11,262 nt of DNA from assembly GCA_010671965.1 (NCBI GenBank), contig JAAHIC010000080.1, forward strand, positions 1-11,262. The letters run 5' to 3'. Position numbers and translations under genes: made by a program. The stretch comes from Leptolyngbya sp. SIO4C5. GTDB taxonomy: Bacteria; Cyanobacteriota; Cyanobacteriia; Phormidesmidales; Phormidesmidaceae. Every line of letters begins with the position of its first letter. The stretch's first letter is position 1. Below, piece by piece: positions 1 through 11,262 of the stretch. The notes beneath the pieces are model-generated. The model did not search any database. It was not told the DNA's origin and saw only the letters and a program-made list of their open reading frames with translations.

Positions 1-153
1 TCCAGGGGGTAGGGCTAAGTCCAGTCAGAGTGAGTGTCATAGTCGTACCGTTGAAACGCTGTTAGGCTTTAAGCCTCTGCCGAGTTGTACTGCTGGCGGC
101 CGGAGAGGTATGCAATTGTCTACAGCGGATCTGCGGAAGTTTTCGGACATAGG
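1..153. other. Non-coding left edge
   Basis: I see no supported gene in this stretch. It holds one small hairpin (AGGCT-TTA-AGCCT near 65-77) and no recognisable RNA gene or promoter. It may be the far end of an intergenic region whose gene lies outside the window. Confidence 0.4.
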
Positions 154-184
154 AAAAAGCGATCGCCTGTAAAAAGCGATCGCT
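154..184 (-). terminator. Terminator of the DUF1232 gene, built from HIP1 sites
   Basis: Read on the minus strand this is the arm AGCGATCGC, a 9-base loop, the arm GCGATCGCT and then five T. The arms (158-166 and 176-184) pair perfectly over 9 bp. The hairpin lies 40 bases beyond the stop codon of the minus-strand DUF1232 gene, as expected for an intrinsic terminator. Each arm contains a full HIP1 octamer GCGATCGC, itself a palindrome abundant in cyanobacterial genomes, so two HIP1 copies have made a terminator. There is no T run on the plus strand, so it should act in one direction only. Confidence 0.75.
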
Positions 185-223
185 CAGCTTGTCTAATCGA
201 GGTGTCATGCTCCTAATTTCTGG

Positions 224-511
224 CTAATCCACCACCTCGATCACAGGCTTTTCAAACTGACTGCTCGTCTGGTTAGAGACTCGCTGGTTACGCTGATTGA
301 GAAACTCCATCGCTATCTGAGACACCTCAGACACCAGCAGCGTAATCAAAATGCCGTCGTCGATCCAGCCAATCACCGGAATGAAGTCGGGTGAGATATC
401 AATGGGGCTGATCAGATAGAGCAGCGTGCCGAAGACAATCAGCCAGCGATAGCGGGTATTGCGCAGGGTGTTGCGATACCACTTATAAAAAGCCTCAACC
501 AAATTTTGCAT
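224..511 (-). CDS. DUF1232 (YkvA-like) small membrane protein
   Basis: This 95-residue protein belongs to the DUF1232/YkvA family, whose biochemical role is not established. The diagnostic core is at residues 24-58: a hydrophobic stretch, then SPIDISPDFIPVIGWIDDG, matching the family pattern of a PiD-PDfiP motif followed by GyiDD. The hydrophobic segments around residues 23-38 and 52-66 suggest a small membrane-associated protein with the conserved acidic loop between them. The C-terminal 25 residues are polar and unconserved in character. The ATG at 511 is used because the conserved core begins soon after it. No clear Shine-Dalgarno sequence precedes it, which is common in cyanobacteria. The gene is alone on its strand here, diverges from the phosphohexomutase unit and is followed by the HIP1 terminator. 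Family assignment is firm; function is unknown. Confidence 0.88.
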   Translation of the reverse strand: MQNLVEAFYKWYRNTLRNTRYRWLIVFGTLLYLISPIDISPDFIPVIGWIDDGILITLLVSEVSQIAMEFLNQRNQRVSNQTSSQFEKPVIEVVD

Positions 512-543
512 CAGGGGTACCTGTGTTTCATATTTCTTTCATT

Positions 544-832
544 TTTATTATGGGGGTTATTCTTTTAAACAACGAGTGTAGAAACCCCGCGCCTAGGGGA
601 CGGTTGCTCCCACCTGGCATCGGCCCGTCCGTTATATGGGCTGGGAAACTGGAGAGGAATGAGTCCACGCAGTGGACATAGGCTGTGAGCCAAGCGGTTT
701 TAACCCTTGGCGGACAGGCGTTTCCTGTGATGTCCTAACTTCGGTAGCCTTAATTACTGCCGGGTCGAGGGCGGCGGGGCTTATGATAAACCGGAGTAGG
801 GACCATCCTTCAGCAGAGGCAAGGGAGCTGAC
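544..832 (+). other. Hairpin-rich leader upstream of the phosphohexomutase gene
   Basis: About 320 bases separate the DUF1232 gene from the phosphohexomutase start, and short reading frames across it look like chance. The stretch is rich in possible RNA stems. CCCC 585-588 can pair with GGGG 596-599 or with an upstream GGGG around 553-556. GGACGG 598-603 pairs with CCGTCC 625-630. GTCCAC 663-668 pairs with GTGGAC 672-677. GCCAAG 689-694 pairs with CTTGGC 706-711, with GG/CC continuing the stem inward. CGGTAG pairs with CTGCCG around 740-760 with one G-U pair. An AT-rich segment with a -10-like TATTCT (558-563) lies just before. It could be a structured 5' leader or a small RNA; I match it to no named family. 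The gene's likely ribosome binding site, AAGGGAG, is about 6 bases before the ATG. Confidence 0.3.
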
Positions 833-2368
833 ATGCAAAGCTTTGACTGGAAGAAGCTGCAAAACGGATCTGATATTCGCGGCGTGGCGCTGGAGGGCGT
901 GGCGGACGAAGCGGTTAACCTCACCCCCGCGATCGCCCAGCAGCTCGGTCAGGCTTTTGTCGCCTGGTTGTCGTCAAAGCTGGACAAAGCGGCTTCAGAG
1001 CTGACCATCTCGGTGGGGCGAGACAGTCGCCTGTCGGGGCCAGCCCTGATGCAGGCGGTGATGGACGGTATGGCGATCGCGGGGAGTCAGGTTTATGACT
1101 TTGGCCTGGCCTCGACGCCAGCCATGTTTATGAGCACCGTCACCCCCGGCTTTGACTGCGATGGCGCGATTATGCTCACCGCTAGCCACCTGCCGTTCAA
1201 CCGCAACGGACTGAAGTTTTTCACCGCTCAGGGAGGCTTAGGCAAGCCCGACATCAGCGAGATCTTGGCGCTGGCGGAGCAGGGCGAGCCGGTCACAGCC
1301 GCGGCCAAAGGTCCCATCGAACCGCGCGATTTCATCTCCGTCTATGCCGATCAGCTCGTTACTAAAATTCGCCAAACGGTGAACCATCCTGATAATTTTG
1401 AGCAGCCGCTACAGGGACTCAAAATTATCCTAGACGCGGGCAACGGCGCGGGCGGCTTCTATGCCAGCCAGGTTTTAGCGCCGCTGGGAGCTGATACCAC
1501 CGGCAGCCAGTTTTTAGAGCCAGATGGCACCTTCCCCAACCACGTCCCCAATCCCGAAGATAAGGCGGCTATGGCGGCCATCTGTCAGGCCGTGACAGAT
1601 AATCAGGCAGATTTTGGCATTATTTTTGACACCGATGTCGATCGCGGCGCGGCTGTAGATGCCTCAGGCCGAGAACTCAATCGCAACCGCCTAATTGCCC
1701 TCATTTCAGCCGTGGTTTTGCAGGAGCATCCCGGCTCTACCATCGTCACCGATTCGATTACCTCTGACGGCCTCACCCAGTTTATCGAGGCTGAGCTAGG
1801 GGGCGTCCATCACCGCTTCAAGCGGGGCTATAAAAACGTGATCAACGAGTCAGTGCGGCTGAACCAGACGGGGCAGGAATCCTGGCTGGCGATCGAAACT
1901 TCGGGTCACGGGGCGATGAAGGAGAACTATTTTCTCGATGACGGCGCTTATTTGGTGAGCAAGCTGCTGGCAGAACTGGCGAAGGCGCAGCTAGCGGGCA
2001 AGTCGCTGACTGACCTGATTGCCAAGCTGCAGGAGCCTGCCGAAAGCGAAGAATTTCGGCTGAAGATGGCGGCTGAGGACTTCAAAACTTACGGTCAGCA
2101 GGTGATTGAGCAGCTAGAAGCCTATGCGGCTAAGCAACCTGACTGGCAGGTAGTGCCCAACAATTACGAAGGCATTCGCATTTCCTGTCAGTCTGCGGCT
2201 GAGGACGGCTGGTTTCTGCTGCGGCTTTCCCTCCACGACCCGGTATTGCCGCTGAATGTGGAATCTAATGTCGAAGAAGGCGTGGCTTTGATAGCAGCGC
2301 GGCTTTTAGATTTCTTTCAAAAATTTGAGCGGCTGGATTTAAGCCAGCTCCGCCAGTTTTTGTCTTAG
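833..2368 (+). CDS. Alpha-D-phosphohexomutase, Slr1334-like (probable glucose-1,6-bisphosphate synthase)
   Basis: This 511-residue cytoplasmic enzyme is an alpha-D-phosphohexomutase. The family signatures are in order: the phosphoserine loop TASHLPFNRNG with catalytic Ser118, the Mg-binding loop DTDVDR (Asp266, Asp268, Asp270), and the sugar-specificity loop ETSGHGA (355-361). The C-terminal phosphate-binding loop, normally RxSGTEP, reads RLSLHDP (464-470), so the usual GTE is missing. This together with the N-terminus KLQNGSDIRG recalls Synechocystis Slr1334 rather than the main phosphoglucomutase Sll0726. Slr1334-type enzymes have been reported to make glucose-1,6-bisphosphate, the activator of phosphoglucomutase, using fructose-1,6-bisphosphate as donor; assigning that role here is inference. 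Length is about normal for the subgroup. The ATG at 833 follows a GGGAG-type site. The UPF0178 gene starts 17 bases after the stop, so the two are probably cotranscribed. Confidence 0.88.
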   Translation: MQSFDWKKLQNGSDIRGVALEGVADEAVNLTPAIAQQLGQAFVAWLSSKLDKAASELTISVGRDSRLSGPALMQAVMDGMAIAGSQVYDFGLASTPAMFMSTVTPGFDCDGAIMLTASHLPFNRNGLKFFTAQGGLGKPDISEILALAEQGEPVTAAAKGPIEPRDFISVYADQLVTKIRQTVNHPDNFEQPLQGLKIILDAGNGAGGFYASQVLAPLGADTTGSQFLEPDGTFPNHVPNPEDKAAMAAICQAVTDNQADFGIIFDTDVDRGAAVDASGRELNRNRLIALISAVVLQEHPGSTIVTDSITSDGLTQFIEAELGGVHHRFKRGYKNVINESVRLNQTGQESWLAIETSGHGAMKENYFLDDGAYLVSKLLAELAKAQLAGKSLTDLIAKLQEPAESEEFRLKMAAEDFKTYGQQVIEQLEAYAAKQPDWQVVPNNYEGIRISCQSAAEDGWFLLRLSLHDPVLPLNVESNVEEGVALIAARLLDFFQKFERLDLSQLRQFLS

Positions 2369-2385
2369 TTTTTGGCTAACGGACT

Positions 2386-2853
2386 ATGCAAATTTGGGTT
2401 GATGCCGATGCCTGCCCCAATGTGATTAAGGAGATTCTGTTTCGGGCGGCTAAGCGGGTACAGGTGTTGACAACGCTGGTGGCCAATCAGCCCCTACAGG
2501 TGCCCGCTTCGGCCTATATCGAGACGGTGCTGGTTGGTGCTGGCTTTAACCGGGCCGATAGCTACATTGTGGCCCAGCTTGAGCCGGGAGACTTGGTGAT
2601 TACGGCTGACATTCCGCTGGCGGCAGAGGCGATCGCCCAGGGAGCCTATGCCCTCAGTCCGCGCGGCGTCCTCTTCGATCAGGGTAATATCCGTGAGCGG
2701 CTCTCGCTGCGCAACTTTATGGAGGATCTGCGCAGCAGCGGTGTGGAAACGGGCGGGCCGCCAGCCTTCAGCCAGCGCGATCGCGAAGCCTTTGCCAACC
2801 AGCTCGATCGCTTTCTGGTCAAACACCGGCCCCCTTCCGAACCGGGCGGCTAA
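2386..2853 (+). CDS. UPF0178 (YaiI/YqxD, DUF188) family protein
   Basis: The 155-residue product is a full-length UPF0178 protein, a widespread family of unknown function that has been grouped with PIN-like domains on structural grounds. The N-terminal signature [14 protein letters not shown] (residues 3-16) is the family hallmark. The second acidic motif, [10 protein letters not shown] (70-79), and the central SPRG (91-94) and [10 protein letters not shown] (97-106) segments are also in place. The conserved aspartates (Asp6, Asp8, Asp75) would be the metal-binding candidates if the PIN-like relation is functional. It has no signal peptide or membrane segment, so it should be cytoplasmic. It begins 17 bases after the phosphohexomutase stop and probably shares its mRNA. 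The terminator-like hairpin at 3054-3080 would end that unit. The last dozen residues are low complexity. Confidence 0.9.
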
Positions 2854-3053
2854 AAATTGACGCCAAAGCTGCCGGAATTGCCAACGAGGCCAGTGTAGCT
2901 AGGTGGGTAATTATGCGGCGCGATCGCCAATCGTCTCAGGTTTATTCGCCCCAGAGGAAAGGCCCCCAGCAGCAAACGTATCCGTTTTTGTAACCCAAAC
3001 TTTTGCTGTCTGAGCTGCCCGCAAAATTAAACTATTCGCTCTCATCCCCCCGC

Positions 3054-3080
3054 ACCAGTGCTCAGCACTGGTCTCTTTTT
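3054..3080 (+). terminator. Intrinsic terminator or leader attenuator before the GUN4-WD40 gene
   Basis: Perfect 8-bp stem ACCAGTGC (3054-3061) and GCACTGGT (3065-3072) with loop TCA, followed by CTCTTTTT. It fits an intrinsic terminator for the phosphohexomutase-UPF0178 unit. However, it lies only 24 bases before the next start codon on the same strand. A second small hairpin, GAGGC-TCT-GCCTC (3083-3095), fills the gap up to the ribosome binding site. Unless the downstream promoter is squeezed into those 24 bases, the hairpin must lie in that gene's leader and act as an attenuator. Confidence 0.7.
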
Positions 3081-3104
3081 GTGAGGCTCTGCCTCGGAGT
3101 CACT

Positions 3105-5024
3105 ATGCGTATCAATCAAATTTCTTGGCTTGGCTTGATTGGTTTGGGTCTGTCCGTCGTTGCCCTCTCGCCCGCAGCGATCGCCCAAACATCCCCTCAC
3201 ACCGAGCAAAGTCCGTCTGTACCCGCTAGGCTAGAACCGATTGGCGAGTTTGGCGGCAGCTACGACCAGCTTCAGAGCTACCTGACGATTCAAGACTGGC
3301 AGGGCGCGGACGCTGAAACCCGCCGAATTCTGCAGCAGTGGGTTCACGCCGACGGCGATTTATACGGCATGCCCCAGTCCAGTGCCATTCCCGCTGAGGT
3401 GATTCGCCAGCTAGATCAGCTCTGGTCAGAGGCCAGCGGCGGTCGCTTTGGCTTCAGCGCGCAGCAGCGCCTTTGGCAGGAGATTGCCGCGCAGCAGATG
3501 GGCAACCCAAATGAGGCAGTCAAAGCCTTTGGCGATCGCGTCGGCTGGACCCGCACTACAGGCAGCGACTATGGCTTTATCGCCCCGGACTGGTTAGTCG
3601 AGCCAGAGCTGACCTTTAGCCTACAGGCCCCAGTCGGCCACCTACCCTGGACAGGCATCGACTGGCAAACGGTATCTGATATTGCCAGCGGTCACGGTTC
3701 GGGCTGCGGCAGCTGCACCATTGATGCTATGTACCTGCAGGGGGAGCGCTTCAACCGCTACCTGCCCGGCCTGTATCATCAGGTCAAGCTGGCCCTGACC
3801 GTGGCAGCACCCATCAGCTACAGCGACTGGCAAACGCCCCAGCTCCACCAGGAAATTGATCTCACCACCCTATATCCCGGCACCGTCTGCCCGGTCCATA
3901 CCCAGGCGCAGGCCGTCAGCCCTGACAGCCAGCTCCTAGCCGTTAGCAGCTATAGCTATGAGCGCTCTTGCAGCTTGGAAAACAACAGCACCCTAACGCT
4001 GTGGAACCTGGCTACCGGTGAGATGATTGCTCGTCTGGTAGCAGGTCAGGCAACTGAAGCCTTTGCCTACACGGGAACGCCCCAGGAGCCACCGACGGAG
4101 CCAGTCAATATGGTGGGAGACGTGGCCAACGCGATCGCCTTCACGCCCGATGCCCGGCTGGTGGCAGCGGGCCTGTCTGACGGGACGGTGAAGCTGTGGA
4201 ATGCCCAAACGGGCGCTGCGCTGCGCACCTTATCCGGTCACCAGTACGCGGTGCACGCGATCGCCATCAGCCCAGACGGTCGCACCCTGGCCAGCGCCAG
4301 CTCCGACCAAACCATCCGGCTGTGGAACCTGCAGACCGGCCAGCTCTTGCACAGCCTCAGCCTGGAGCCGTCTCAGGCCATTCCCCAAAGGCTGCAGTTT
4401 AGCCCCGATAGTCGCCGTTTGGTCAGCGTCACCTGGGCCAACAAAGTGCAGCTCTGGAATCCGGCCACCGGGCAGCTTATTCGCACATTCATGGACGCTG
4501 GCAGCCCGGTCGCTCAGCCCATGCCGGTAGCGTTTAGCCCCAACGGCCTGATTCTAGCCACTAGCGATGTTGATAACAGCGTCAAGCTCTGGAATGCGGT
4601 CAACGGGGCGCGAATGCTGACCCTGCGGGGCCATCAGGCCCCCGTGCGATCGCTGGCTTTTTTGCCGGACGGGCAGACGCTGGCTAGCAATAGCGAAGAT
4701 AATACGGTACGCCTGTGGAATCTACAGTCGCCTCAGCTCACCCGCGTTTTTGAGGCGGTCAACTTTGTGGCTCAGCCCCAAGCCACCTCGCTCAGCCTAG
4801 GAGAGCTGGCGGTGAGTCCAGACGGGCGATCGCTGGCAACCAGCGCCATTCTGCCCCCGACCGGGCAGGAGGCTCCCACCGCAGGGCTGAAGCTGTGGGA
4901 TATCTCCAGCGGTGAAGTGGTGACGGCTGTTCCAGGCGTATCTAGCTTCAGCTTCACGCCCGACAACCAGTTTCTGGTGACCTACGGGCCAACGCTGCGG
5001 ATCTGGCAGCCTGAGCAGCTTTAG
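3105..5024 (+). CDS. Exported GUN4-like domain / WD40-repeat protein
   Basis: With the start at 3105 this is a 639-residue protein. Residues 1-27 form a signal peptide (Arg, hydrophobic core, cleavage after AIA before Gln28). A GUN4-like domain covers about 50-190, shown by YDQLQSYL, DWQGADAETRR and LWSEASGGRFGFSAQQRLW (106-124). A CGSC motif (Cys201, Cys204) follows. From about 255 to the end are roughly eight WD40 repeats, each ending in a form of LWN (LTLWNL, VKLWNA, IRLWNL, VQLWNP, VKLWNA, VRLWNL, LKLWDI, LRIWQP), enough for one beta-propeller. True GUN4 binds porphyrins and stimulates Mg-chelatase in the cytoplasm or stroma; an exported copy must do something else, and porphyrin binding is untested. 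The reading frame extends up to a TTG at 3003, but the ATG at 3105 follows a CGGAG site by 5-6 bases and exposes the signal peptide. It converges with the next gene across 34 bases holding only a 5-bp GC hairpin (5039-5053). Confidence 0.85.
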   Translation: MRINQISWLGLIGLGLSVVALSPAAIAQTSPHTEQSPSVPARLEPIGEFGGSYDQLQSYLTIQDWQGADAETRRILQQWVHADGDLYGMPQSSAIPAEVIRQLDQLWSEASGGRFGFSAQQRLWQEIAAQQMGNPNEAVKAFGDRVGWTRTTGSDYGFIAPDWLVEPELTFSLQAPVGHLPWTGIDWQTVSDIASGHGSGCGSCTIDAMYLQGERFNRYLPGLYHQVKLALTVAAPISYSDWQTPQLHQEIDLTTLYPGTVCPVHTQAQAVSPDSQLLAVSSYSYERSCSLENNSTLTLWNLATGEMIARLVAGQATEAFAYTGTPQEPPTEPVNMVGDVANAIAFTPDARLVAAGLSDGTVKLWNAQTGAALRTLSGHQYAVHAIAISPDGRTLASASSDQTIRLWNLQTGQLLHSLSLEPSQAIPQRLQFSPDSRRLVSVTWANKVQLWNPATGQLIRTFMDAGSPVAQPMPVAFSPNGLILATSDVDNSVKLWNAVNGARMLTLRGHQAPVRSLAFLPDGQTLASNSEDNTVRLWNLQSPQLTRVFEAVNFVAQPQATSLSLGELAVSPDGRSLATSAILPPTGQEAPTAGLKLWDISSGEVVTAVPGVSSFSFTPDNQFLVTYGPTLRIWQPEQL

Positions 5025-5058
5025 ACGTGGTGGGCTGAGCCGCTCTGCGCGGCGCCAA

Positions 5059-6444
5059 CTATACTGGCAGGACTTTCCCCCGCAGTCCTGCCGGGGCTGC
5101 GAGGTGATAGCGGCCCAGCAGCGTCGGCAAAATGTCATAAATCTGCGCCTCTGAGAGTACCTGACCGTCCTGGGGCTGCTGCGGATCGTGGAAAATCATC
5201 AGGCCGTACTGGGCGTGATTGGCATCGTCCGGGCCAGTGTCGTTGTCAGTGGTGTAGAAAGCGCCGCTGCCCACGCTGCCCACTGAGCGCCAAGCCAGCC
5301 TGTCAAAGTAGGCAATTAGATCCGGGGCCAGGCCGCGCACTTTTTGATAAATCTGCTGCGGTCGAAAGATCTCAATGTTCAAAGATTCTCCTGCCGGGCC
5401 AGGCAGGACAGAGAGCTTTTCGATAATTTCATGGCGGGTGCTTTCATACTCGGCCATCGGCACGGTGCCCTGCGGCTCCCGCCCCTTGACGTTGAGAAAA
5501 ATCCGTCCGTAATAGCCACCTGCGCCCCAAGCCTTCGTCTGGCTCCAGTCCACTTCAACTTGATCTAAGGGCTGAAGCGCTGTTGGCGTTTCTTTTAGCA
5601 CTAGATAGCCCTCGGCAATCAGCCACTCATTCAGGCAAATCCCTCCCATCAGCGGCTGGGCTCCGTGGTCAGAGACGACCAGAACAGCCGTCTCTGGGCC
5701 GCACTGGGCCAAAAGCTGCCCCACCTGCTGATCCACATGGCAGTAGTAGTCGTGAATGGCGTTGGCAAAGGGGGAACCTGGCTCGTGCTGGGGATGGTTG
5801 GCGTCCATCGGCTTCCAGAAAGAGTGATGAATGCGATCGACGCCCATGTCTACCAGCATCAAAAAGTCGGGGTTGTCTTGGGCAATCAGCTTTTGGGCTA
5901 ACAGAAATCGCTGGTCGCAGAGGGTGTAGATATTGTCGAGAATGCGCTGTTTGTCTTCGGAGCGGAAGTGGGGTACATCTAGCAGAAAGTCGGGCATCCA
6001 GTCGAGGATTTGTCCGGCTAGCTCCGGCGGATGGGTAAAAGTGGCTTCGGTGTTGGGAGTCAAAAAGCACGACACCAGTGAACCGTTGACCGGATAGGGG
6101 GGAGAGGTCCCCGGAACCCCTAGCACCGCCACCTTCCAACCCGCTTCGCCCAAAATGTCCCACAGGCGCGGCACCCGCACTGCCCGACCATCCGAGATTG
6201 CCATTGAGTCATAGCCCCGGTTCTGACGGTTGCGAAAGCCGTAAATTCCCAGCTCACCCGGATCTCGGCCGCTGGTCATGCAGCTCCAGGCCGGTACGGT
6301 AATAGCGGGAATGCTGCTCTCCAATTGCCCGTAGCTGCCCTGGGCCATCAGCCGCGACAGGTTGGGCAGGTCTGACCGCCAGCGGTCAAACACCAGAGAC
6401 GGTTCCATGCAGTCGAGGCCAATAATGATCAGGCGAGGAGACAT
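5059..6444 (-). CDS. Alkaline phosphatase superfamily phosphodiesterase/nucleotide pyrophosphatase-like hydrolase
   Basis: The 461-residue protein is a cytoplasmic member of the type I phosphodiesterase/nucleotide pyrophosphatase branch of the alkaline phosphatase superfamily (COG3379-like). The two-metal site can be followed in order: Asp11 in IIIGLDC, the nucleophile Thr49 in PAITVPAWSCMTSG, Asp203 and His207 in VDMGVDRIHHSFW, Asp259-His260 in VVSDHGAQ, and His410 in DDANHAQYG near the C-terminus. All expected ligands are present, so it is probably active. The substrate, a phosphodiester or phosphomonoester, cannot be read from sequence. There is no signal peptide. The ATG at 6444 starts directly into a beta strand carrying Asp11; no clear Shine-Dalgarno is seen. 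A palindromic repeat begins about 6 bases upstream of the ATG and forms the gene's leader or promoter region. It converges with the GUN4-WD40 gene, with no strong terminator between them. Confidence 0.87.
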   Translation of the reverse strand: MSPRLIIIGLDCMEPSLVFDRWRSDLPNLSRLMAQGSYGQLESSIPAITVPAWSCMTSGRDPGELGIYGFRNRQNRGYDSMAISDGRAVRVPRLWDILGEAGWKVAVLGVPGTSPPYPVNGSLVSCFLTPNTEATFTHPPELAGQILDWMPDFLLDVPHFRSEDKQRILDNIYTLCDQRFLLAQKLIAQDNPDFLMLVDMGVDRIHHSFWKPMDANHPQHEPGSPFANAIHDYYCHVDQQVGQLLAQCGPETAVLVVSDHGAQPLMGGICLNEWLIAEGYLVLKETPTALQPLDQVEVDWSQTKAWGAGGYYGRIFLNVKGREPQGTVPMAEYESTRHEIIEKLSVLPGPAGESLNIEIFRPQQIYQKVRGLAPDLIAYFDRLAWRSVGSVGSGAFYTTDNDTGPDDANHAQYGLMIFHDPQQPQDGQVLSEAQIYDILPTLLGRYHLAAPAGLRGKVLPV

Positions 6445-6450
6445 AAGTTA

Positions 6451-6565
6451 AGTCTGATTATCTATGAGACGCATTTCGACTCCGCTCAATGCTCGATCCG
6501 TTATTAGGCAGAGGGTTGAGCGAAGTCGTTCACGAAGTGTCTCCCGAAGGGAGAAAACCCGGCAA
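6451..6565. repeat. Palindromic repeat, copy 1 (interrupted)
   Basis: This copy matches the repeat at 6731-6815 almost base for base from the AGTCT start through GAAGTCG. Its arms are TTTCGACTCCGCTCAA (6474-6489) and TTGAGCGAAGTCG (6516-6528). After the right arm it is interrupted by 25 foreign bases (6529-6553) and then resumes with AAAACCCGGCAACC, matching AAACCCAGCAACC in copy 2. It lies about 6 bases upstream of the phosphodiesterase start codon, so it is part of that gene's leader or promoter. Such mobile palindromic elements (REP- or MITE-like) are common in cyanobacteria; no transposase is present here. Confidence 0.75.
6529..6553. repeat. Small palindromic repeat nested in copy 1
   Basis: These 25 bases are absent from copy 2 and consist of two mini-hairpins with GAA loops: CAC-GAA-GTG (6531-6539) and CTCCC-GAA-GGGAG (6541-6553). 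The composition recalls the short palindromic repeats of Nostoc-type genomes (CGTCTCC...GGAGA-type elements). It looks like the insertion of one repeat family into another. No clear target duplication is visible. Confidence 0.55.
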
Positions 6566-6730
6566 CCTCAGCGGTTTAGCAATACCCACCTGTGTCCTGA
6601 CAAAGAGGGCGATCGCTATATTGTTTCATCATGACGCATCCTCGCAGCTTGGCGACTGAGGCTTTATGTTTTAGAAAAAACGAGCCACGGCGCAGCTAAA
6701 CCCAGGCAGCAGTGAGGTGTTAAGTAAATC
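6566..6730. other. Non-coding spacer between the two repeat copies
   Basis: I find no gene or RNA family here. It carries one HIP1 octamer near 6610. The words GTTAAGT occur just before both repeat copies (6447 and 6719), so the repeat unit, or what was copied with it, may extend slightly further left than the AGTCT boundary used here. Confidence 0.4.
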
Positions 6731-6815
6731 AGTCTAATTGTTTAGACGCATTTCGACTCCGCTCAATGCTCGATCCGTTATTGGCAGAGGGTTGAGCGAA
6801 GTCGAAACCCAGCAA
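6731..6815. repeat. Palindromic repeat, copy 2 (intact)
   Basis: The intact copy has a left mini-hairpin GTCTAA-TTGT-TTAGAC (6732-6747). A large hairpin follows: TTTCGACTCCGCTCAA (6751-6766) against TTGAGCGAAGTCGAAA (6792-6807), 16-base arms around a 25-base loop. There is one mismatch on the plus strand that becomes a G-U pair on the minus strand, so a minus-strand RNA would fold fully paired. Same orientation as copy 1, about 280 bases apart. It encodes nothing, and I infer that it is a mobile non-autonomous repeat. Confidence 0.75.
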
Positions 6816-6849
6816 CCCAAATTGGACTTGATTTGATCCTCCTACTTAT

Positions 6850-6887
6850 TTCTCGCTCCCTGGTCGAGTGAGAGAGCGAGAATTTTT
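6850..6887 (+). terminator. Unassigned intrinsic terminator
   Basis: Perfect 9-bp stem TTCTCGCTC (6850-6858) and GAGCGAGAA (6874-6882), loop of 15, then five T. In form it is a good plus-strand terminator, but no plus-strand gene lies between 6445 and 6850. It may end an unseen small RNA, or block read-through towards the 3' end of the minus-strand small gene at 6915. Confidence 0.6.
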
Positions 6888-6914
6888 CGCGATCTGCTGC
6901 GGGCGACGGCGGGT

Positions 6915-7160
6915 TTAGCAGAGGGAGCAGCGCTTAGTCAGAATCACCATCACTTCGTTAGGCCGATCGGTGGGCATGGGCTGGCTCCAGGCCGTGGCTT
7001 CGGCGTAACCCAGTATGTGCAGCCGGTGGATTTCTAGCCGTACGCAGGGCAGGGGGCCAAACATCATCAGCCGCACGTGATCGCCGCTGTTGGCTTGTTC
7101 GCGGGTGGGAACGGCGATCGCGGGGGAAGGGCGATCGCTGCCATGATTTTCTTGAAACAT
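6915..7160 (-). CDS. Small conserved cyanobacterial protein of unknown function
   Basis: This 81-residue protein resembles a small hypothetical protein I associate with cyanobacteria, recognised by VRLMMFGPLPCVRLEIHRL followed by LGYAEATAWSQP, a PTDRPNEVM turn and a C-terminal ILTK. I know of no assigned function. The core (residues 27-75) is compact and mixed alpha/beta in character. The N-terminal 25 residues are polar and probably disordered. It has no signal peptide or membrane helix. Two Cys sit at the very end (KRCSLC). The frame stays open upstream to 7268, but the start at 7160 is decided by a perfect AAGGAG 7 bases before the ATG, and the upstream residues would come from low-complexity DNA. 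It stands alone between repeats, and a large inverted repeat lies directly upstream where its promoter should be. Confidence 0.75.
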   Translation of the reverse strand: MFQENHGSDRPSPAIAVPTREQANSGDHVRLMMFGPLPCVRLEIHRLHILGYAEATAWSQPMPTDRPNEVMVILTKRCSLC

Positions 7161-7167
7161 GAGTGTA

Positions 7168-7173
7168 CTCCTT
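7168..7173 (-). promoter_or_regulatory. Strong Shine-Dalgarno of the small conserved gene
   Basis: AAGGAG on the minus strand, 7 bases before the ATG at 7160. It fixes the start of the 81-residue protein over the longer open frame that reaches 7268. It is the clearest ribosome binding site on the cyanobacterial side of the window. Confidence 0.8.
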
Positions 7174-7187
7174 GAGTGAATTTGAGC

Positions 7188-7339
7188 CTGGGAGGGGAAG
7201 GCGGAAGTAGGTAAAGGATGAAGGATGAAGGCAGAACGACGAAGTGAAAGGCTTTCAACCTCTATCACCTCACTCTGTAATTTCTGCCTTTTTCCTTCTG
7301 CCCTCTACCTTTTTCCTTCTGCCTTTCCCTGATCCCCAG
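7188..7339. repeat. Large imperfect inverted repeat, purine arm and pyrimidine arm
   Basis: The left arm (7188-7236) is purine-rich, with a tandem GGATGAAGGATGAAGG. Its reverse complement aligns with the pyrimidine-rich right arm (7282-7339), which has two TTTTTCCTTCTGCC units. The arms meet perfectly at GGCAGAA / TTCTGCC on the inside and CTGG-type / CCAG on the outside, with mismatches and a few gaps between. The central 45 bases are unique. The structure could form a long hairpin or cruciform, and the short units probably change length by slippage. Reading frames across it are low-complexity and not credible as genes. It occupies the presumed promoter region of the small conserved gene. 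Confidence 0.6.
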
Positions 7340-7350
7340 AACCAAAAACT

Positions 7351-7489
7351 CAGCCACCCCGACAACTTGCAACGCAAATCGAGGTGGCTGGTGGTACACT
7401 GCACCACTAGCCGCCAGACTGCTGTAGACAGTTTGGGGGTCAGCTCTCTAGACGGTGTTTCCAGCACCTCTAGGGAGCGCTAAGTTTTT
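7351..7489 (+). ncRNA. Candidate structured small RNA
   Basis: About 140 bases can fold into successive stems that end in an intrinsic terminator: CAGCCACC (7351-7358) with GGTGGCTG (7383-7390), GTGGT (7391-7395) with ACCAC (7403-7407), a weak ACTG/CAGT stem near 7418-7432, and the terminator hairpin at 7443-7478 followed by TTTTT. No credible protein frame overlaps. No promoter is obvious, and I match it to no named family (not tRNA, 6S, Yfr1 or a known riboswitch as far as I can judge). It is proposed from structure and terminator alone. Confidence 0.35.
7443..7489 (+). terminator. Intrinsic terminator of the candidate small RNA
   Basis: GCTCTCTAGA (7443-7452) pairs with TCTAGGGAGC (7469-7478) over 10 bp with one U-G pair. 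The loop adds an inner GGTG/CACC stem. Five T follow at 7485-7489 after a short spacer. It terminates plus-strand transcription, and the only thing upstream on that strand is the non-coding stretch 7340-7442. Confidence 0.6.
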
Positions 7490-7640
7490 GAGTCTGTGTG
7501 AATAAGCTGTAACGTTTGGACTGCCACAGCTTAATGGGTGAGTGTACGACATTGGGCGATCGGCGTCAATAGCGGTGCGAAGCTATGCATCTAAAGGGCT
7601 TCTCACGCGCGTCCCCCTTGGTTGAGTACGTGAGTATAAA
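7490..7640. other. Non-coding stretch with several hairpins
   Basis: No gene is supported here. Three inverted repeats are visible: TAAGCTGT (7503-7510) with ACAGCTTA (7526-7533), ATAGC with GCTAT near 7569-7586, and CTCACG (7602-7607) with CGTGAG (7629-7634). The stretch lies just past the point where homology to the integrase remnant ends. I looked for integron attC-type core sites in these hairpins and found none that convince. Confidence 0.4.
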
Positions 7641-7871
7641 AGCCTGGTTTTGAGTAGAGGCTGCAACCTACTCTTGCACCGCTAGATGGGTGAGAAAGGC
7701 TTCTTCTAGTTCAGGAACACCCATCTCTTGGGGATGAGGCTTGTCATGAAACAAGATGTCACAGCGAATCCATTGCACATAGGTTTGTTCCGTGCGGTAG
7801 GAATAATGCTTCAAACGAATAGCCTCTCTAACCTGGTCGAGTAGCTTCTTAGAACTAGGTTCTGCTTGCAT
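7641..7871 (-). pseudogene. Decayed integron-integrase-like tyrosine recombinase N-terminus
   Basis: From the ATG at 7871 the frame gives 67 residues that match the N-terminal SAM-like (core-binding) domain of integron integrases: KLLDQVREAIRLKHYSYRTE, QTYVQWIR, LFHDKPHPQEMG, AFLTHLAV. A TAG stop (7670-7668) then interrupts. The same frame reads on after the stop as VAASTQNQA (7667-7641), which is exactly how this family continues (LAV..xVAASTQNQALSALLFLYR). Beyond 7641 the similarity vanishes. The usual WIRRFI core reads WIRCDI, a further sign of decay. The catalytic domain with the R-H-R-Y residues, about 200 residues, is absent, so no active recombinase is made here. It marks past integration or rearrangement next to the CHAT gene. 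Confidence 0.82.
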
Positions 7872-7952
7872 GAGTAGACTGCCTGAAAAGAGCTGATGAA
7901 TAAACTCTAAGCAAACTTAACCTGAAACTGAAGGGATGATTATACTGAATCA

Positions 7953-7989
7953 TTCCACCTATTTACTCGTATGGGGATTTTAGGTGGAA
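7953..7989. repeat. Inverted repeat upstream of the CHAT gene
   Basis: TTCCACCTA (7953-7961) and TAGGTGGAA (7981-7989) form a perfect 9-bp inverted repeat around 19 bases. No T run follows, so it is not a terminator. It lies in the AT-rich interval between the integrase remnant and the CHAT gene, about 145 bases before its start, and could be a regulator-binding site or the trace of a small repeat. A further AT-rich palindrome (CAATTT-AA-AAATTG, 8090-8103) lies nearer the gene. Confidence 0.4.
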
Positions 7990-8133
7990 ACTTTCCCTCT
8001 AATAATAGTTATGCAGCGCAAGGTTATTCAGGAATGCCTCACTTCAAGAATATTTGCGATGCCAATAGGCTGTTCCTTTTTCTGGAATACAATTTAAAAA
8101 TTGAATAAAGTCAATTGACCTTAGGTAATTTGC

Positions 8134-8643
8134 ATGGATGATGGTGCAACCTTAAAGTCGATATTGCTATTGGCTGCAAATCCCAAAGGGTCGGTAAGTT
8201 TGCGCTTGCAAGAAGAGGAACGGGAAATTAAGGAGCGCTTGCGTTTAGCTGGATATGGCAAAGTGCCCATCAACTCCACTGGAGCGACCCGAACCAGAGA
8301 TATTCAGCAGGCAATGTTGGATTTCAAGCCCCAGATTGTACATTTTACAGGTCATGGAACCGGTGAAGATGGTCTGGCTTTTGAGAATGTAATGGGGCAC
8401 CTCAAGCTGGTTGATTCAGATGCATTAGCCAATCTATTCAAACTTTTCTCTAGTCACGTAGAATGTGTCGTTTTGAATGCCTGCTATTCAAGGTTTCAAG
8501 CTAAGGCTATTGCGCGACACATTGACTATGTAGTTGGTATGGAGCAGGCAATAGGCGATCGTGCAGCAATTGAGTTTTCCATTGGTTTCTATACAGCTCT
8601 AGGAGCAGGAGAATCAATTGAGTTTGCTTATAAGCTTGGTTGT
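8134..8643 (+). CDS. CHAT-domain (caspase-like) protein, 3' end lost at the junction
   Basis: The first 170 residues are a CHAT domain, a caspase-fold cysteine protease module frequent in cyanobacterial signalling, cell-death and phage-defence proteins. The opening ILLLAANPKGS...LRLQEEEREI is typical. The His-Cys dyad is visible as His74 in HFTGHGTGEDG and Cys117 in CVVLNACYS, followed by YVVGMEQAIGDRAAIEFSIG and GAGESIEFAYKLGC. Relatives continue with NAIQL-type residues and often a partner domain, but here the frame runs into unrelated GC-rich DNA after Cys170. Residues encoded from 8644 to the stop at 8910 are foreign. The start at 8134 is supported by the domain starting at once; only a weak AGG precedes it. 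Base composition is visibly more AT-rich than the genes upstream, which with the integrase remnant suggests an acquired gene. Its natural partners and substrate are unknown. Confidence 0.85.
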
Positions 8644-8646
8644 ATA
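8643..8646. other. Chimeric junction between cyanobacterial and alphaproteobacterial DNA
   Basis: To the left is AT-rich cyanobacterial CHAT sequence, family-typical up to the TGT codon at 8641-8643. To the right is GC-rich sequence whose minus-strand App1-like frame is family-typical up to the GT of a Val codon at 8647-8646. Both genes therefore lose their 3' ends at the same 2-4 bases. There are no terminal repeats, target duplication or transposase. The palindrome GTATAC (8642-8647) straddles the point, probably by chance. Confidence 0.85.
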
Positions 8647-8908
8647 CCTCGTCGGTCTCGTAGACCTCGCGCATCACCTTCAGGCGCGACAGCGTGCCCT
8701 CGCCGTGGTCGATGCGGCGGCGGCTTTCGAGTACGCGGCCCGACAGGTAGATGCGGCTGTCGCTGCGATAGCCCGCATAGCACGCGATCTGCGCGCTTTC
8801 CGGCTTGTGTTCGCCGAAGATGCGGTAGCGGACGCGGTCGAGCGCATCTTCCAGGGCGACGAGGCTGTGCACAGCCGTCCGCGACAGCCGGCTGGAGAAC
8901 AGGTGCAT
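8645..8908 (-). CDS. App1-type phosphatidate phosphatase-like protein (DUF2183), N-terminal fragment
   Basis: The 88 residues from the ATG at 8908 match the N-terminal part of DUF2183/App1-like proteins, a group named after yeast phosphatidate phosphatase App1. The recognisable parts are IACYAGYRSDSRIYLSGRVLE, the family's Y-GY...GRVL strand region, then LKVMREVYETDEV, the helix ending in ETDEV that precedes the next strand. The catalytic DxDxT motif of the HAD-type domain would lie further on and is lost at the junction, so function rests on the N-terminal match alone. The frame is open upstream to a TTG at 8998, but the ATG at 8908 is preferred because the matching residues begin near it. 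It diverges from the alpha/beta hydrolase across 89 bases that must hold both promoters. After codon 88 the frame reads into cyanobacterial DNA. Confidence 0.72.
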
Positions 8909-8997
8909 GAGCGCCGGTTCTGGGGGCCGGCAGCCGACGCGGCAACCCGCCAATCGGAGAGTAGGCCGCCGGTCGCCGCGTTGGTAGATCGCCGACA

Positions 8998-9903
8998 ATG
9001 GAGGAGTTTGCCTGGTTCCCGCCGCCGGACAGCGGCATGCGCGCTCGCTTCGTGGAGGCGAACGGCCTGCAGTTCGAGCTCGTGGAAGCGGGCGCGGAGG
9101 GCGACCGGCTGGCGATCTGCCTGCACGGCTTTCCCGAGCTCAACCTGTCCTGGCGGCACCAGATCCCGCTGCTGGCGGAGCAGGGCTGGCGCGTCTGGGC
9201 GCCGAACCTGCGCGGCTACGGCGCCAGCGCGCGGCCGAAGGGCGCCGCCGCCTACCATATCGACACGCTGACCGAGGACATCGGCGCGCTGATCGACGCG
9301 GCGAAGGCGGAGCGCCCCGCGTTCGAAGTCATGCTCATCGCGCACGACTGGGGCGGCGCGATCGCGTGGGACTTAGCCATGCGGCGCGTGCGGCCGCTCG
9401 ATCGGCTGGTCGTCATGAACATGCCGCATCCGTTCACCTTCGCGCGGTCGCTGCGGCTCTCGCCGGCACAGCGGCGGCGCAGCTGGTACGTCTTCTTCTT
9501 CCAGCTGCCGAAGCTGCCGGAGGCCCTGATGCGCGCGAACGGCGCCCGCGCCGTGCGGCAGGCCTTCAGGGGCATGGCCGCGAACCCCGAGCGCTTTCCG
9601 AGCGACATCCTCGACATCTACGCCGCGGCGGCGCTGCGGCCGGGCGCGATGACGGCGATGATCAACTATTACCGCGCGATCCGGATGGCACGCGGGCGCG
9701 TGGCCGCCAGCGACCCGCGCGTCGACGTGCCCACGCTGCTCGTCTGGGGCACCGCGGACGAGGCACTGGGCCTGGAGACGCTTGACGGCATCCACGCTTA
9801 TCTACCGGACCTGACATTGAAATTTCTGCCGGGCATTTCGCACTGGGTGCAGCAGGACGCGCCGGAGGAAGTAAACGCAATCCTCAGGGACTGGCTCACC
9901 TGA
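8998..9903 (+). CDS. Alpha/beta hydrolase, epoxide hydrolase-like
   Basis: The 301-residue protein is a complete alpha/beta-fold hydrolase of the epoxide hydrolase/haloalkane dehalogenase type. The oxyanion motif HGFPE (43-47) and the SWRHQ that follows it are typical of epoxide hydrolases. The nucleophile elbow AHDWGG gives Asp117; Asp254 in GTADEAL is the likely charge-relay acid and His282 in GISHWVQ the general base. Cap-domain tyrosines that could polarise an epoxide are Tyr164 and Tyr224/225. It acts in the cytoplasm (no signal peptide) and would hydrolyse an epoxide or related substrate to a diol; the substrate cannot be told, and dehalogenase or ester hydrolase activity remains possible. 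The start at 8998 is chosen for the usual N-terminal length; Met14 (9037) is the alternative. Codons strongly favour G or C in third position. Confidence 0.85.
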   Translation: MEEFAWFPPPDSGMRARFVEANGLQFELVEAGAEGDRLAICLHGFPELNLSWRHQIPLLAEQGWRVWAPNLRGYGASARPKGAAAYHIDTLTEDIGALIDAAKAERPAFEVMLIAHDWGGAIAWDLAMRRVRPLDRLVVMNMPHPFTFARSLRLSPAQRRRSWYVFFFQLPKLPEALMRANGARAVRQAFRGMAANPERFPSDILDIYAAAALRPGAMTAMINYYRAIRMARGRVAASDPRVDVPTLLVWGTADEALGLETLDGIHAYLPDLTLKFLPGISHWVQQDAPEEVNAILRDWLT

Positions 9904-9934
9904 ACGCCGAGGCCGACATGTTGTCTGCCGCAAG

Positions 9935-9967
9935 AAAAAAGGGCCGCTCCTCCCCGGAACGGCCCTT
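9935..9967 (-). terminator. Terminator of the complete PEP-CTERM gene
   Basis: On the minus strand AAGGGCCG (9967-9960) pairs with CGGCCCTT (9946-9939), followed by a run of six T, 25 bases after the PEP-CTERM stop codon. The plus-strand alpha/beta hydrolase ends 31 bases to the left, so the hairpin may stop both convergent transcripts, although the plus-strand side has only a weak T run. The trailing sequence CGGCCC-TTTT-CTTGCG is nearly the same as in the terminator of the neighbouring paralog. Confidence 0.8.
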
Positions 9968-9992
9968 CTTCAGGTTCAGCGCTGCGGACGCG

Positions 9993-10715
9993 TCAGGCCT
10001 TGCGGCGGCGCCTGGTCATGGCGATCCCGGCGAGACCGAGGCCGAGCAGCCCGAGAACGCCCGGTTCGGGGACATCCGTCGTGATCTGGTCGAACTGGAT
10101 GTCGAGTGCGGACGGCCCCGTTACGCGGATGGACAGGCCATCGGCCACACCGTTGAGCAGATCGGTGTTGAACGACAGCGACCGGAACTCCGAACTGCCA
10201 GGCGCGATGGTGCCGGACTCGGTGAACTGGTCCGCCAGCGTACCGTTCACGAACAGCGAGAAGGTCCGCGAATTCGCATCGGCGAAGATCGTCCGCAGAT
10301 CGACGCGGCCGGTCGCATTGGTGCCGGCAATGCCGGCGAAGGCGTCTTCCAGCGCATAGCTGAGCTGGACATAGGCGTTCACGCCGGCATCGGCGGAATA
10401 CTGAAGCGAACTGCCGTTGATTTCGGCGGTCGCCGCGCTGTCCGCAAAGGCGACGCTGTTCAGCCGCAGGATCCCGAGCCTGTCGAGGCCACTCGGCATG
10501 ACGGACTGGAGATCGGACGTATCTTCCGTGACGATGGTCTGCCCACCAGAGCCGTCGTCGAAGCTGCCGACCGCAAGGACCGCATCGGTTGTGGACCCGC
10601 CGTCTTTCGTGAACGCCGTATCGAAATTATCGAGCGTGATCGTGACGGCTGCAGCTGGCGCGCTGAACGCCAGCGTTGCGACGCCGGCAAGCGCTGCTTT
10701 GGAAATCATCTTCAT
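9993..10715 (-). CDS. PEP-CTERM sorting domain protein (exported)
   Basis: The 240-residue protein has a signal peptide at 1-23 (KMISK, hydrophobic core, cleavage after SAPAAA before Val24). It then has a Ser/Thr/Asp/Gly-rich beta-type body, and a PEP-CTERM sorting signal: VPEP (215-218), a glycine/leucine membrane segment (GLLGLGLAG) and RRRRKA at the end. Such proteins are exported, then cleaved and anchored or released by an exosortase, usually in bacteria that make exopolysaccharide; the body has no domain I recognise. It contains no Cys after the signal peptide. The ATG at 10715 follows AGGAG-TAGGG by 7-11 bases. A strong sigma-54-type promoter lies 48-64 bases upstream. The next gene on this strand is a paralog. 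No exosortase is in the window. Confidence 0.9.
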   Translation of the reverse strand: MKMISKAALAGVATLAFSAPAAAVTITLDNFDTAFTKDGGSTTDAVLAVGSFDDGSGGQTIVTEDTSDLQSVMPSGLDRLGILRLNSVAFADSAATAEINGSSLQYSADAGVNAYVQLSYALEDAFAGIAGTNATGRVDLRTIFADANSRTFSLFVNGTLADQFTESGTIAPGSSEFRSLSFNTDLLNGVADGLSIRVTGPSALDIQFDQITTDVPEPGVLGLLGLGLAGIAMTRRRRKA

Positions 10716-10762
10716 TTGGCACCCTACTCCTAAAACTCAGTGCCCCCGCACGGGAAGAGCCA

Positions 10763-10779
10763 TGCAGGGGCCGTGCCAA
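10763..10779 (-). promoter_or_regulatory. Sigma-54 (RpoN) -24/-12 promoter of the PEP-CTERM gene
   Basis: The minus strand reads TTGGCACGGCCCCTGCA, against the consensus TTGGCACG-N4-TTGCA. The invariant GG and GC are 10 bases apart as required, and only one base of the -12 element differs. Transcription would start about 12 bases on, near 10752, giving a leader of about 37 bases that contains the AGGAG ribosome site. Sigma-54 control through PrsK/PrsR is known for PEP-CTERM genes in other bacteria. Confidence 0.75.
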
Positions 10780-10815
10780 GCAGACCAAAATTCAAGTATC
10801 CGAGTGCCTTAGGGG

Positions 10816-10834
10816 GCAGAGCATCACCCTCTGC
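10816..10834 (-). promoter_or_regulatory. Palindrome, candidate activator site for the sigma-54 promoter
   Basis: GCAGAG-N7-CTCTGC is a perfect 6-bp inverted repeat about 70 bases upstream of the predicted start of transcription. Sigma-54 promoters need an upstream-bound activator, and this is the clearest dyad in the interval. That it binds a PrsR-like response regulator is inference. Confidence 0.4.
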
Positions 10835-10919
10835 AACGGAAAGGCGTAAAATATTCCGACGATCGAATTTGCGTCACTGCGGGAGGCTGTCGCTTTTTCC
10901 GCCGGCGTGGGCAGGACGC

Positions 10920-10954
10920 AAGAAAGGGGCCGCCCGAACGACTTCGGACGGCCC
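10920..10954 (-). terminator. Terminator of the second PEP-CTERM gene
   Basis: On the minus strand GGGCCGTCCGAA (10954-10943) pairs over 12 bp with TTCGGGCGGCCC (10938-10927), with one G-U pair and a 4-base loop, followed by CTTTCTTG. It lies 22 bases after the stop codon of the partial PEP-CTERM gene. Position and sequence resemble the terminator of the downstream paralog. Confidence 0.75.
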
Positions 10955-10976
10955 ACTGATCATTCGGATGCGGAAG

Positions 10977-11262
10977 CTACCGTGTCCGGCGGCGGCGCGC
11001 CAGGCCAAGACCGGCAAGGCCAAGGCCGAACAGGGCGATCACGCCAGGCGCCGGCACCTCGCTGGGCGGCGGGGGCACGTCGAGCTGCATGAAGTCGAGC
11101 TCGTAATCCAAGCCGCCAATGAGACCGTCGACGGAAAAGGTGAACTGATCGTTCGTGAGGTTGAGCAGCGACGTGTCGAAAGACAGCGACTGGGTGTAGG
11201 CAGGAAAGCTGGGGTCACTGTCGTCGGCAACCTGGAAACCGGTGATCTGGCTCGCTTGGGTA
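10977..11262 (-). CDS. PEP-CTERM-type protein, C-terminal part (5' end outside window)
   Basis: The last 94 residues of a gene that begins beyond the right edge. The end is a PEP-CTERM-type signal with VPAP in place of VPEP: EVPAPGVIALFGLGLAG, then LGLARRRRTR and a TAG stop (10979-10977). A proline-rich linker (VPPPPSE) precedes it. The body resembles the neighbouring paralog: QSLSFDTSLLN here against RSLSFNTDLLN there, at about the same distance from the C-terminus, followed in both by alternating beta-type residues and a final Asp-Val before the signal. It is therefore a tandem paralog, exported and probably processed by the same exosortase. VPAP variants are found in alphaproteobacterial PEP-CTERM sets. 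It has no ATG within the window. Confidence 0.85.
   Translation of the reverse strand, partial: TQASQITGFQVADDSDPSFPAYTQSLSFDTSLLNLTNDQFTFSVDGLIGGLDYELDFMQLDVPPPPSEVPAPGVIALFGLGLAGLGLARRRRTR

Follow-up and report, generated by a model that had tools for sequence, protein, structure and literature searches.

A contig of the Leptolyngbya sp. SIO4C5 draft genome is very probably an artefactual chimera of cyanobacterial and sphingomonad DNA

The locus raises the question of whether the two ends of one contig come from the same bacterium and, where they do not, whether they were brought together in a cell or in the course of sequencing. The window, meaning the whole stretch of DNA analysed here, is the complete 11262-base contig C983 of a 5.6 Mb draft genome in 1203 contigs, for which a completeness of 98.78 and a contamination of 1.7 are reported. 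As judged from its sequence, the window very probably represents two unrelated bacterial genomes, those of a cyanobacterium and a sphingomonad, that have been wrongly fused into an artefactual chimera. The initial annotation had described the window as a chimera in which a cyanobacterial genome is joined to a foreign one, and had proposed a separate search with each half; the best relatives of the two sides belong to different phyla, namely Almyronema epifaneia on the left and Pacificimonas on the right, which bears the description out.

The cyanobacterial part of the contig extends from position 1 to 8643, as indicated by Pfam matches, likeness to A. epifaneia and DNA identity to the same-genus cyanobacterial genome G001 (80% over 5069-6445). 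Genes assigned by Pfam on the positive strand encode a phosphomannomutase/phosphoglucomutase (833-2368), a DUF188/YaiI protein (2386-2853) and a GUN4-WD40 protein (3003-5024), in which a GUN4-like domain and WD40 repeats occur within one polypeptide; a type I phosphodiesterase is encoded on the negative strand (5059-6444). The phosphomannomutase shares 83% identity with its closest named relative, from A. epifaneia, and among the 120 matches listed all named relatives are cyanobacterial; a literature search listed one paper that names the genus and no draft-genome publication for Almyronema. The last gene on this side is the 5′ part of a CHAT-domain gene (8134-8643, positive strand), cut off after codon 170. 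Its truncated product matches the CHAT profile PF12770 at 5.3e-10 over profile positions 82-255 of 289, and DNA-level relatives of this stretch occur in five of 19 genomes, the contig's own genome included.

A repeat-rich intergenic stretch, reaching to 8133, separates the phosphodiesterase and CHAT genes, and 6444-8011 consists largely of repeats present elsewhere in the same genome and its family. A short element at 6444-6572 recurs at 86-92% identity on four or more further contigs of the genome, and 6921-8011 belongs to a multi-copy repeat family without long frames that is 73-85% alike on about 10 other contigs and is also found in relatives. A second composition step lies at about 7142, within the cyanobacterial part, and 7142-8643 forms a low-GC island carrying the CHAT gene, whose codon use is unlike that of four genes to its left (GC3 of 0.39 versus 0.67-0.71). 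A third genome in this interval was considered and rejected, as the step coincides with own-genome repeats (7343-7988 is 85% identical to contig C1093) and CHAT relatives are found in the same genome, family or class. The low GC3 of the CHAT part is a feature of the cyanobacterial side, and the island is perhaps an older acquisition within the cyanobacteria. No match is listed for 8012-8133, where an extra join may be conceivable.

To the right of the join, from 8645 to 11262, the sequence is best interpreted as a segment of a Pacificimonas-like chromosome. When the right-hand DNA was compared with Pacificimonas aurantium and relatives, 26 of 40 genomes matched, with two Pacificimonas genomes ranking first and second and another genome close behind. 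An intact alpha/beta hydrolase gene, epoxide hydrolase-like, occupies 8998-9903 on the positive strand; its best named relative is from Pacificimonas flava (65%), and the other listed loci are mostly from Sphingomonadales and other Alphaproteobacteria. The best protein overall is 80% identical and, with this as the nearest protein, the source sphingomonad itself did not turn up in the collections searched. Convergent with the hydrolase gene is a gene for a PEP-CTERM protein identified by Pfam (9993-10715, negative strand). The same arrangement, at similar spacing, is present in P. aurantium L019, to whose counterpart the first window PEP-CTERM gene has 52% identity over 239 aa in the same orientation; this gene order was found in one of 80 hydrolase loci, and the P. 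flava locus is without it. A second PEP-CTERM gene, also identified by Pfam (10977-11262, negative strand), has no equivalent in any of the 80 hydrolase loci and is cut by the contig end, which coincides with the right edge of the window and is reached with the frame still open.

Adjacent to the join is the N-terminal part of an App1-like gene (8645-8908, negative strand), cut off after 88 codons and before the catalytic domain. The fragment has no Pfam match and so no APP1 catalytic domain; in a full-length relative, APP1_cat spans residues 201-354, which the alignment does not reach, and the fragment reads as the N-terminal remnant of an App1-like gene. A search of 18 genomes of alphaproteobacterial type, taken from the 80 hydrolase loci, gave matches in two, both of Pacificimonas, at 42-45% identity. 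No App1 gene lies beside the hydrolase in any of the 80 loci, and the two genes are apart in both Pacificimonas genomes, so the gene order at the join is without a direct parallel.

The exact position of the join follows from these two truncated genes. The initial annotation had placed it within 8643-8646, with the CHAT and App1-like genes ceasing to match their families at the same 2-4 bases, and the alignments agree on both counts. All seven alignments of CHAT relatives, one from the same genome, three from family members and three from a single genome of its class, end at Cys170, whose codon finishes at 8643; the next residue is Ala, Ser or Asn in the relatives, versus ATA, encoding Ile, in the window. 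Both alignments to Pacificimonas App1 proteins end at Val88 (codon 8645-8647), after which the relatives have Pro versus Tyr in the window. From these ends of homology, the last base of the left genome is 8643 or 8644, and the first of the right genome is 8645 or 8646; the join at 8643-8646 is thus bounded by a reciprocal end of homology, with a GC change point at 8646, and the sequence common to both genomes amounts to about 3 nt at most. Of the window's 27 frames of at least 80 aa, 10 were searched with Pfam and gave no match to a transposase, integrase or phage gene, and searches of the window for tRNA genes and Rfam families likewise returned none. Eleven records of a plasmid collection match 7800-9900 in part, none of them over 80% of the stretch.

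Base composition changes at the same place, as had been claimed for this locus. When a single GC change point is fitted to the whole window, the best position is 8646, and the same position is obtained from 7000 to the end and from 8100-9300; its log likelihood ratio of 48.5 was reached by none of 2000 shuffles in 200-nt blocks, the largest of which gave 44.4, so that the margin is not wide. Tetranucleotide usage passes from bin-like on the left to Pacificimonas-like on the right, the right part correlating at 0.071 with the sampled bin versus 0.479 with Pacificimonas; among 278 bin windows of equal length, none leaned as far towards Pacificimonas and one was as poorly correlated with the bin. 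GC3 is 0.80-0.91 to the right of the join, beyond the range of the four left-hand genes and of the CHAT part.

Two further arguments of the initial annotation did not hold as proof. The octamer HIP1 occurs 16 times in the 8643 bases on the left versus once in the 2616 bases on the right, a contrast that does not reach significance on its own, whether by a Fisher test (p = 0.15) or by a Poisson test on the bin density (p = 0.067); at most one copy is present in 24 of the 278 bin windows as long as the right part. PEP-CTERM genes had been thought not to fit a cyanobacterium; contigs C573, C650 and C407 of the same genome, however, carry PEP-CTERM matches over the cut-off, in surroundings with a GC of 0.54, 0.49 and 0.56; HIP1 sites within about 2.6 kb number 1, 6 and 9, respectively. 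The cyanobacterium thus appears to have PEP-CTERM proteins of its own, C573 being the least certain case. In the window, the first PEP-CTERM gene is marked as foreign by its Pacificimonas relative, its gene order and its composition.

Like joins are present elsewhere in the assembly. Of 120 further contigs sampled at roughly even steps, 84 were readable and 36, all below about 3 kb, read N. A GC of at least 0.68, a threshold set after two ends had stood out, was reached by two of 168 contig ends (C455 and C378) versus one of 1982 inner 500-base windows on the 84 contigs (Fisher p = 0.006, indicative only, as windows overlap and the inner window, judged native, was left out); such a screen is blind to foreign DNA of ordinary GC. 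In C455 (L174), positions 1-643 form a foreign tail that holds most of a dihydroorotate dehydrogenase (PyrD) gene and is joined to sequence of bin-like GC. The best named relatives of this PyrD are from Pacificimonas (79-81%), with 83% for the best protein overall, and the rest of the contig is called cyanobacterial by GC and HIP1 only. In C378 (L167), the foreign tail (about 5920-6635) carries part of a CoA-ligase-type gene from a high-GC bacterium. A cyanobacterial gene there matches all five relatives to 5924 and then stops, where all five continue for 28-46 residues; on the opposite strand, homology of the CoA-ligase-type gene is lost at 5920-5926 in three of five relatives and at 6004 and 5848 in the others. 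The two genes meet tail to tail within a few bases. Neither of two Pacificimonas genomes matches this foreign end, and the five of 20 relatives that do are all at 39% identity or below. Because the end is not Pacificimonas-like, at least two foreign sources have to be assumed, and the C378 tail is likely from a source other than a relative of Pacificimonas.

Other candidates in the sample were set aside. A foreign origin was rejected for the internal high-GC stretch in C125 (L144), the contig having 22 HIP1 sites and looking native, and C871 (L224), at the top of the change-point list, owed its rank to 5000 bases reading N. Four sampled contig ends have a GC of 0.40 or below (L223, L245, L250 and L253) and may be native or foreign. 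Whole-contig GC was at most 0.578 in all 84 sampled contigs, so foreign DNA is seen only as tails, a picture that would result from binning that keeps mainly cyanobacterial contigs. The bin gave one rpoB match and one partial 16S match, which is weak evidence given that the 16S search was positive in only nine of 14 control genomes and that contigs shorter than 3 kb are given as N. The sole 16S match covers model positions 9-873 and lies on C871, the contig with 5000 bases reading N.

The foremost alternative is a recent natural transfer, in which a sphingomonad fragment would have broken the CHAT gene by illegitimate end joining and the far end would lie beyond the contig. Joins with little shared sequence can arise in cells, the two bacteria may live together, and the join taken alone cannot tell a transfer from an artefact. 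The right part continues to the contig end at 11262; no second host flank was seen, although one could be beyond it. This explanation nevertheless has to accommodate three contigs of one assembly with such joins, from more than one source and each running off a contig end, when the sole inner window at the GC threshold is HIP1-rich and native in appearance. Within the window itself, the right part is Pacificimonas-like in composition and follows Pacificimonas gene order, with no tRNA or Rfam match. A cyanobacterial genome with several very recent captures from co-living proteobacteria scattered through it, including a multi-kilobase sphingomonad fragment, is very unlikely, and so is a recent transfer at this locus. 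The initial annotation had considered an artefact likelier than natural transfer, a judgement strengthened by the foreign joins at the ends of at least two more contigs.

An older transfer, by which the right part would be native to the cyanobacterial lineage and fixed in the genus, is hardly credible. The same broad hydrolase family is present in all 19 cyanobacterial genomes searched and the genome has its own PEP-CTERM genes, but the best hydrolase match among the 18 other cyanobacterial genomes is 47%, no cyanobacterial hydrolase outside the window exceeding this, versus the 65% of P. flava; the composition is also Pacificimonas-like, and the two genes are broken off at the same bases. An assembly error through a repeat common to both genomes, a variant of the artefact whose share is mostly counted there, has scarcely any probability as a separate explanation: the 1.5 kb before the CHAT gene does contain repeats with multiple copies in the genome, but the 3 nt or so that are at most common at the join are far below the usual assembly overlap.

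These data show that the contig has two sources, that they meet abruptly with hardly any shared sequence, and that the assembly contains further joins of this type; an artefactual origin is supported by recurrence, by position at contig ends and by what is known of how cyanobacterial assemblies behave. As a sequence feature the join is genuine; its origin is almost certainly artefactual. A cyanobacterium related to Almyronema would have been sequenced together with proteobacteria, among them a relative of Pacificimonas, from a mixed source such as a non-axenic culture or an environmental sample. A cyanobacterial fragment ending within the CHAT gene would then have been joined to a sphingomonad fragment starting within the App1-like gene, possibly during library making, amplification, or by the assembler at thin coverage; joined molecules are favoured over a repeat-driven assembly error because shared sequence is near-absent at the join. 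The contig, being 77% cyanobacterial, would have been retained with the cyanobacterial genome.

The chimeric contig is a data error for removal and no biological discovery. It carries a data-quality warning, since some contigs have foreign tails in a genome with a reported completeness of 98.78% and contamination of 1.7%, and such tails may be misread as horizontal transfer or yield false fusion proteins; the 258-aa CHAT frame that continues into sphingomonad DNA is an example. Two of the 84 readable contigs are affected, and extrapolation of this rate to the readable part of the assembly would give perhaps some twenty such contigs.

Abrupt joins of this kind are known from multiple displacement amplification, for which complementary sequences of 2-21 nt are described at more than 70% of chimeric junctions and as less frequent for partners more than 10 kb apart (PMC1855051). 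The join in the window is similar in being abrupt with few or no matching bases; those chimeras, however, arose within one genome and 85% were inversions, and amplification of the present sample is a supposition. Mixed lineage within a contig is treated by GUNC as an underdetected kind of contamination (PMC8201837), and the window shows chimerism of the sort scored there despite the low reported contamination. Companions in cyanobacterial cultures are described as mostly Bacteroidetes and Proteobacteria (PMC6202449), and the behaviour of cyanobacterial assemblies reported in PMC8862208 supports an artefact. The closest parallel is the survey of 440 assemblies by Cornet et al. 2018 (PMC6059444), in which contaminants of cyanobacterial assemblies most often belonged to Proteobacteria and Bacteroidetes and chimerical scaffolds were described. 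Read coverage was among the criteria in that survey, unlike here, where the assessment draws on nucleotide and protein comparisons alone; as in those scaffolds from cultures that are seldom axenic, cyanobacterial and non-cyanobacterial segments stand side by side in one sequence.
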